Shown here piece after piece: positions 24,913-26,789 of a stretch of DNA of 64,000 nt; position 1 is the stretch's first letter; each line of letters starts with the position of its first letter. Source of the DNA: Microcaldota archaeon (GTDB lineage: Archaea; Micrarchaeota; Micrarchaeia; Norongarragalinales; SBBD01). The position numbers and the translations under genes are program-made. Under the pieces are notes generated by a model. The model had not been told where the DNA came from and ran no database searches. It was given only the letters and a program-made list of their open reading frames with translations. The stretch lies in assembly GCA_016212475.1 (NCBI GenBank), contig JACRGC010000011.1, positions 16,255 through 80,254 on the forward strand, read 5' to 3'.

Positions 24913-26022
24913 ATGCGAATATTTGACTTTTCAGTCAAGAGGATAGAAAAAGAACTCAAAAGCAAGATCAACGAATACGAAGATACGCTAATGCAATATA
25001 GCCCCATACAAAAAAACGAGATCAATAGGAGAATCAGGCAGATTGAAAATCGTTTTTCATCCCTGACCAAGTTCTTCAACTTCCAAAAATACTCGGCTGC
25101 GGATGATTTCTTCTTCAAATACGAAAAACTTCCGCCTTTTGGGAAGGAATACTGGTTTTTGTATTTTGTCGAGCCAAAAACGAAGCATCAGTTGATTGTT
25201 ACTTTTGGAAGGTATTCCTCGCATATAAACATCAACAAATTGGAACTTTCCGGCTCATCGGAAGAAACCAATGTTTCCGAATGCGCAGCTGTTGCTTGGA
25301 TGTTTGATAAAAAGCGAAAGATCCTGCTCAATTCAAAGCAAAAAGTAGAAGTGGCATTTGGCAGCAAGGAAAGCAAAAAAAGAATCGGGTTTGAAGGAAA
25401 AGGAAGCAAATTCGAATTTACAGGCAAATACCCAAATTACAATCTTTCACTTAGCACCAAAATGGGAAACACGAAATTGGAGCTTTTCAAATCAAAAAAA
25501 GGAAAGCCATTTGAAATCCAGCACTTATTTGCAGGGAATTTGGGATTTGGGCTTGTGAATTTGTATTTTGATTTCAAGGGAACCTTGCTTGGGAAAAAAA
25601 TGATAGGGAAATGCTATGTGCAAAAAGTAATAGTGACTTCTCCGTTCATTCCATGGAATTGGGGCAGGTTTTACTTCCAGGACGGGAGCATTTTTGAATT
25701 CTTCACGCCCTATGTGCCGTTCCTCCCAACCAAGGTGAAATTTGCATCTTTGGTGCATTATTATGATGCCAAAAAGAACAAAACCTACAAGCTAAAAGGG
25801 CTTAAAATCGAAAAAGCCGCCGGTTTATCCAGATGGCATATTTACGGGGATGATTATTCGCTTTATGCCCGGCCGTATTCGGAATTCCTATTCAAATTCG
25901 AAGGCCTTGGCTTCTTCAAGTACTACGAATATTTCACGGAGGCGGTTGATTTTTACGTGAAGGGAAAACAGCTTGAAAACGGAGTTGGGATAATCGAGGA
26001 TGCTTACGGTTTCCTTGTGTAA
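24913..26022 (+). CDS. Hypothetical protein, possibly a lipocalin-like beta barrel
   Basis: 369 residues. Residues 1-65 are helical and charged. The rest is rich in aromatic strands (FGKEYWFLYFVEPKTKHQLI; FPWNWGRFYFQDGS-type stretches; RWHIYGDDYSLYA). It ends ENGVGIIEDAYGFLV. The layout recalls AttH/CrtC-like double-lipocalin proteins, but no diagnostic motif is certain. No signal peptide. Divergent from the EF-Tu-like gene and probably leaderless. Confidence 0.55.
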   Translation: MRIFDFSVKRIEKELKSKINEYEDTLMQYSPIQKNEINRRIRQIENRFSSLTKFFNFQKYSAADDFFFKYEKLPPFGKEYWFLYFVEPKTKHQLIVTFGRYSSHININKLELSGSSEETNVSECAAVAWMFDKKRKILLNSKQKVEVAFGSKESKKRIGFEGKGSKFEFTGKYPNYNLSLSTKMGNTKLELFKSKKGKPFEIQHLFAGNLGFGLVNLYFDFKGTLLGKKMIGKCYVQKVIVTSPFIPWNWGRFYFQDGSIFEFFTPYVPFLPTKVKFASLVHYYDAKKNKTYKLKGLKIEKAAGLSRWHIYGDDYSLYARPYSEFLFKFEGLGFFKYYEYFTEAVDFYVKGKQLENGVGIIEDAYGFLV

Positions 26023-26221
26023 AAAAACGGCGAAATTACTAATTTAAAATTAAAATTGAAGGCCCAATACAAGCTTTCCCTTTCCAAAAGTAGATTGCAC
26101 ATGTTCTTCCCAGCGTGCAGTTTTTGCCAAACAGCGTCCCTTTTCAAAAGATCCGTTTCCGTGATGCGGATTGGATCAAATTTGAATATACATCACAAAT
26201 CCATAGCGAAAAGATAAGTGT
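26023..26221. other. Gene-free stretch before the sRNA candidate
   Basis: With the sRNA and the bases up to 26402 this is the longest gene-free gap (380 bp). It has no protein-like ORF in any frame, no tRNA shape and no strong repeat. Probable 3' region of the preceding gene. Nothing further recognised. Confidence 0.4.
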
Positions 26222-26288
26222 GTAATTCAGTAGCTACCTTAGTCCTCATTGCATGCGCTCAGTCTGGGACAGTCTCATCACGCAAATA
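26222..26288 (-). ncRNA. C/D box sRNA candidate
   Basis: On the minus strand: C box GTGATGA (26275-26281), 12 nt, D' box CTGA (26259-26262), 9-nt spacer, C' box ATGAGGA (26243-26249), 12 nt, D box CTGA (26227-26230). Both guide segments are exactly 12 nt, the archaeal rule. Guides are GACTGTCCCAGA and CTAAGGTAGCTA. By the D+5 rule they would direct 2'-O-methylation at UCUGG(m)GACAGUC and UAGCU(m)ACCUUAG. Targets were not identified. Box layout is seen; function follows from family knowledge. Confidence 0.65.
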
Positions 26289-26402
26289 TTCTGAAAGTTG
26301 AGATTTAAAAGCGCTTTGAAGTGCAGGCAAATATTAGCATCAAACTGGTTTTGCAGTGCTTGTTTCCCAAACATTTATTATCAAGAATGCCCTTTTTTGC
26401 AT

Positions 26403-26789
26403 ATGGGATTCAAGGAGCTTTTGAAACCGTCAAAAGAGCACATATTTTTTTTTCTGCTATTTGCCTTGGCAGCCAATTTCCCATATTTTGGCTCGTACCA
26501 CACGGATACGCTTGGAATCTCATGCAAAACCAACAATACAGCTGATTGCCAAACATCCGGCGAAAGAACCATCCGGCTAAACCCGCTTTTCTGGTTTCCA
26601 TATACAATTGTTGGAAACAGCGATGTGCTGACAAAAAACCCGCTTGGAATTGAGGAAGAAATTTCAATTCCAATACTGAAAATAAACGCTTTTTCGATTC
26701 AGTTCTTCCTAGCTTTGCTATATTGGTACTTGGCATCCGGGCTTATGATTTATGGGATTTCAAGAAAGGAGGATTCGGATTCTAAATAA
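26403..26789 (+). CDS. Small membrane protein, unknown
   Basis: 128 residues from ATG 26403 (MGFKELLKPSKEHIF). One membrane segment at about 14-32 and another at about 98-118 (FSIQFFLALLYWYLASGLMI) flank an external loop with two Cys (SCKTNNTADCQT). C-terminal tail charged. The track start 35 codons upstream covers non-coding DNA. No family recognised. Confidence 0.6.
   Translation: MGFKELLKPSKEHIFFFLLFALAANFPYFGSYHTDTLGISCKTNNTADCQTSGERTIRLNPLFWFPYTIVGNSDVLTKNPLGIEEEISIPILKINAFSIQFFLALLYWYLASGLMIYGISRKEDSDSK

Follow-up and report, generated by a model that had tools for sequence, protein, structure and literature searches.

A predicted C/D box sRNA gene between two open reading frames

We analysed a 64,000-nucleotide stretch of DNA (the window) from contig JACRGC010000011.1 of a Microcaldota archaeon assembly (GCA_016212475.1). 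Between two plus-strand open reading frames at positions 24913–26022 and approximately 26403–26789, both without Pfam matches, the minus strand carries a putative C/D box sRNA gene at 26222–26288, an approximate extent drawn from the sequence, its homologues and a covariance-model match. Read along the minus strand, the element consists of a C box, GTGATGA (26275–26281), a 12-nt D′ guide, GACTGTCCCAGA (guide 1; 26263–26274), a D′ box, CTGA (26259–26262), a 9-nt D′–C′ spacer, GCGCATGCA (26250–26258), which varies in length and sequence among relatives, a C′ box, ATGAGGA (26243–26249), a 12-nt D guide, CTAAGGTAGCTA (guide 2; 26231–26242), and a D box, CTGA (26227–26230), with all four boxes read from the sequence and conserved in the alignment of relatives. 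An earlier, sequence-only reading of this DNA had described a C/D box sRNA with these boxes, two 12-nt guides and a 9-nt spacer in a gap between ORFs; each of these was found as described when minus-strand positions 26227–26281 were read again, as was the placement between ORFs. Approximately 22 nt upstream of the C box on the same strand, the sequence reads TTTTAAAT (26303–26310), a TATA-like element that may serve as a promoter.

Several features of the class are present: the boxes C (RUGAUGA), D′ (CUGA), C′ (UGAUGA-like) and D (CUGA) follow one another in order, guides of about 12 nt lie directly upstream of D′ and D and are separated by a short D′–C′ spacer (12, 12 and 9 nt), and the guides can pair across the D+5 nucleotide of 23S rRNA G2251 and U2438, with compensatory changes among relatives. 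The same genome encodes fibrillarin (E = 1.5e-76) and Nop5 (E = 2.5e-55), while L7Ae, being a ribosomal protein, is expected to be present. From its boxes, its conservation and guide–target covariation, the assignment of the minus-strand element to the archaeal dual-guide C/D box sRNAs, the class proposed by the sequence-only reading, is well supported and near certain. When the genome (1.37 Mb) was searched with a strict C–D′–C′ pattern, three matches were found, and none with a backwards control pattern. The two further C–D′–C′-like matches (G000:C3:63990–64025, L053; G000:C14:119994–120032, L055) are possible C/D sRNAs.

A scan of the whole window with Rfam gave no match at any family's gathering score. 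The sub-threshold matches over the element were mostly to C/D families, the best being sR19 (RF01142) and snoPyro_CD (RF00095), which match through the boxes and part of guide 1; membership in either was ruled out, as they scored 17.0 and 18.7 bits, respectively, against gathering scores of 45.

Conservation across the phylum

DNA searches identified homologues in relatives (best E = 2.2e-9), and a degenerate pattern run over GTDB genomes matched 15 contigs, of which ten carry the title Micrarchaeota, two 'Candidatus ainarchaeum' and three just 'archaeon'. When the phylum's 301 genomes were searched with a covariance model built from 18 sequences, 127 proved to hold the RNA, nearly all of them in a single copy; the filters were strict, so that genomes lacking a match may still carry it. 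The best match had an E-value of 2.9e-23, and the organism's own copy (G000:C9:42473–42542, corresponding to window positions 26219–26288) one of 1.4e-15.

Among about 98 homologues, the best-kept parts are both guides and the boxes; the spacer can be as short as about 3 nt or longer than 20 nt, and that of several homologues could form a hairpin. A terminal stem closing the C/D kink-turn, an optional feature of the class, is absent from the window copy but present in most relatives, where it covaries: 70% of cells are paired compared with 51% after shuffling, and there are 26 double changes compared with 9.8; none of 500 shuffles reached the covariation score. Upstream, an alignment of 99 homologues has a peak of A/T at a fixed distance from the C box, the place occupied in the window by the TATA-like element, and most relatives have such an element. 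The sRNA probably has its own promoter.

Guide 2 has been replaced in two relatives (L028 of G014 and L189 of G011), which keep guide 1 and carry CCCAAAGACAGTG or a similar sequence in its stead. A new target for the swapped guides of these two genomes was looked for and not found.

Two predicted targets in domain V of 23S rRNA

To search for targets, the guides of each relative were scored against that genome's own rRNA within an alignment. For guide 1 this joint scan gave a top 23S column with a mean score of 24.4, with the next at 14.1 and the best 16S column at 12.4; for guide 2 the top 23S column scored 20.5, and both the next column and the best 16S column scored 12.3. When guide positions were shuffled, the observed 23S maximum was reached once in 200 trials for guide 1 and never in 200 for guide 2. 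Aligned with E. coli 23S rRNA, and applying the D+5 rule, these columns place the predicted methylation at G2251 in the P-loop (helix 80) for guide 1 and at U2438 in helix 74 for guide 2.

The sequence-only reading had assumed perfect complementarity and therefore predicted the wrong exact targets, UCUGGGACAGUC and UAGCUACCUUAG, both of which are absent from the organism's own 16S and 23S rRNAs. Its D+5 phase holds for both guides: for guide 1 it falls on the second G in CUGG, for guide 2 on the U in AGCU. The supported targets pair imperfectly, guide 1 with CUGGGGCGGU (G2251) and guide 2 with AAGCUACCCCGG in helix 74 (AGCUACC...GG; U2438), and in every genome tested the pairing spans the D+5 nucleotide. 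In the organism's own genome guide 2 forms only 7 contiguous bp before two mismatches (–12.3 kcal/mol), and in one relative (G132) guide 1 has a mismatch at position 3.

Compensatory changes in guide and rRNA support both predicted 23S targets. Position 8 of guide 1 is A opposite a P-loop U in exactly three genomes (G140, G017 and G022) and G opposite C in 30; position 4 of guide 2 is A opposite U in exactly three (G030, G140 and G141) and G opposite C in 31, a covariation that had been predicted in writing before the 23S rRNAs were fetched; and position 10 of guide 2 forms A–U in nine genomes, G–C in 21 and A·C in four. These genomes are related, and the counts are therefore not counts of independent events, with G140 and the pair G017/G022 belonging to different families (f22 and f7). 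Where the helix-74 guide has been lost, in G011, the helix-74 target has also changed. Taken together, the sequence comparisons make a strong case for the P-loop G2251 as the predicted target of guide 1. The case for helix 74 U2438 as that of guide 2 is of moderate strength in this genome and strong when the family is taken as a whole.

Several other candidates were rejected. For tRNA, we found only a 6-nt D-arm match common to many tRNAs and scattered short runs. In 23S rRNA, GUAAUACCUCG (near 1939) fits guide 2 in some genomes only and leaves positions 1–4 unpaired, and GCUACUUCGAUG (near 2496), likewise considered for guide 2, came from one rRNA copy of G005, whereas the organism's own lineage has GUACAUCGCUAUC there. 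G005 (C77, C63; L058, L062, L072, L077) carries two very different 16S–23S pairs, one of which may be a contaminating contig.

In the organism's own genome (L002, minus strand), as in those of about 30 relatives, the peptidyl transferase segment at E. coli 23S 2495–2507 (GCACCUCGAUGUC) reads GUACAUCGCUAUC or GUACAUCGCUGUC: nearly every copy read has C for A2503, and most of the order to which the window belongs has A for G2505. The bases A2503 and G2505 are generally very conserved. The organism's own 23S gene (L002) also contains at least two insertions, one near 1931 and one after approximately E. coli 2451, the latter a few bases downstream of the guide-2 target and holding an ORF that by eye resembles a LAGLIDADG homing endonuclease.

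Imperfect pairing and complementarity of the target sites

Unexpectedly, the imperfection of the guides is itself conserved. In 94 of 98 homologues, position 6 or 7 of guide 1 is a U, which gives a U:G wobble. In guide 2, 94 of 95 homologues have an A at position 8 or 9, the remaining one having a C at position 9; G never occupies both positions, even though nearly every target reads CC opposite them. Whether the resulting A·C mismatch falls at position 8 or 9 depends on the lineage, and in no tested genome is guide 2 free of an imperfect position.

The 12-mers targeted by the two guides are complementary to one another (–13.7 kcal/mol), to a degree matched by 0.2% of random 12-mer pairs; among 2,861 partners of the P-loop 12-mer, the site in helix 74 ranks 26th. 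Guides that matched these sites fully would therefore anneal to each other inside the sRNA: perfect pairs would reach –8.8 kcal/mol, compared with a mean of –3.1 kcal/mol for the natural pairs. The guides may be imperfect because perfect ones would anneal in this way. It is possible, if doubtful, that they have been selected to be imperfect and that the sRNA prevents mispairing between the P-loop and helix 74 while the ribosome is being assembled; if so, the guide pair would have been kept across the phylum because the sRNA holds the two sites apart. We arrived at both ideas, the avoidance of annealing and the separation of the sites, after seeing the data, and a plainer explanation is that mismatch tolerance and shared ancestry account for the imperfect guides.

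Alternative explanations

That UGA words fell into this arrangement by chance, in a gap without function, had been judged unlikely from the sequence, and we agree. Such words are common, and the strict C–D′–C′ pattern also occurs at two further loci in the genome, but the conservation of the element in 127 genomes, the covarying stem and the guide–target covariation refute this reading and make it vanishingly improbable. It is also very improbable that a genuine C/D sRNA uses guide 1 mainly on 16S rRNA, at UCUGGGACG (167–184). The organism's own 16S rRNA offers 10 bp there, including one wobble, which 100 shuffled guides did not reach, and a similar 9-bp match exists in G016. However, relatives do not preserve this site: in its column of the 16S alignment, scores are 6 to 14.5 for four of the six relatives that were placed near it, and the mean is 11.9 compared with 24.4 for the 23S P-loop. 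Position 8 of guide 1 covaries with the P-loop instead. The search for rRNA complements of at least 9 nt proposed by the sequence-only reading thus does return a match, of 9–10 bp at this site, but one that relatives do not keep; by itself, that check would have misled us about the target.

That guide 2 pairs imperfectly with helix 74 in every genome, and most weakly in the window's own, would fit a guide that is an orphan or serves another RNA, leaving only guide 1 to act on rRNA. We consider this quite improbable, since helix 74 alone stands out among the columns and no shuffle reaches its score, positions 4 and 10 of guide 2 covary with the helix-74 target, and tRNAs provide no good match. 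That the sRNA is mainly a folding chaperone, with methylation at one or both sites secondary, we regard as unlikely, though less so: a dual guide would hold apart the mutually complementary targets, and chaperone roles have been discussed for archaeal C/D sRNAs (PMC7994747, PMC4644070). Against it, pairing covers the D+5 nucleotide in all genomes tested, as methylation needs, and the genome encodes fibrillarin.

A model for the sRNA and its relation to known systems

It is very likely that the element is a dual-guide C/D sRNA, probably transcribed from its own promoter, that guides 2′-O-methylation of two sites in 23S domain V; its expression and the methylations themselves we infer from sequence comparison. 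Together with L7Ae, Nop5 and fibrillarin, the sRNA would form a C/D sRNP in which the D′ guide would pair with the P-loop and direct a methyl group to G2251, while the D guide would pair with the 3′ strand of helix 74 and direct one to U2438. By binding both sites, which lie about 190 nt apart, the particle would probably also help this region to fold. Both predicted methylation sites lie in the ribosome's catalytic centre.

As judged from its sequence, the sRNA represents a new family, absent from Rfam, within a known class of RNA, and gives Micrarchaeota, a phylum of tiny uncultured archaea, a phylum-wide set of C/D guides. It predicts guide-directed Um2438 and Gm2251, the latter a widely conserved P-site methylation, and its natural guide–target covariation offers a testable case. 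In a literature search of partial coverage, we found no paper with both 'Micrarchaeota' and 'box sRNA' and no archaeal report of U2438 methylation, which makes 'unreported' a provisional term.

The same rRNA nucleotide as G2251 is methylated in E. coli (Gm2251, by RlmB) and in eukaryotes (Gm2619 or equivalents) (PMC11542601, PMC2584109). In bacteria this is the work of a stand-alone protein enzyme, in contrast to the guide RNA predicted here, and the eukaryotic guide RNAs for the equivalent nucleotide, compared by site alone, differ from it. Within archaea, a seven-species survey lists G2251 (alignment position G2520) as a predicted sRNA target in three of the seven species (PMC4644070); these sRNAs share the predicted P-loop site with the one described here, a likeness of site alone. 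More generally, archaeal dual-guide C/D sRNAs likewise have four boxes, 12-nt guides and a short spacer, two targets within one rRNA domain, and fibrillarin and Nop5 encoded in the genome (PMC7994747; PMC4644070). Whereas a review of these RNAs stresses the fast evolution of guides and their varied pairing (PMC7994747), the Micrarchaeota sRNA has kept both of its guides together phylum-wide and over deep time, against the rapid turnover reported.
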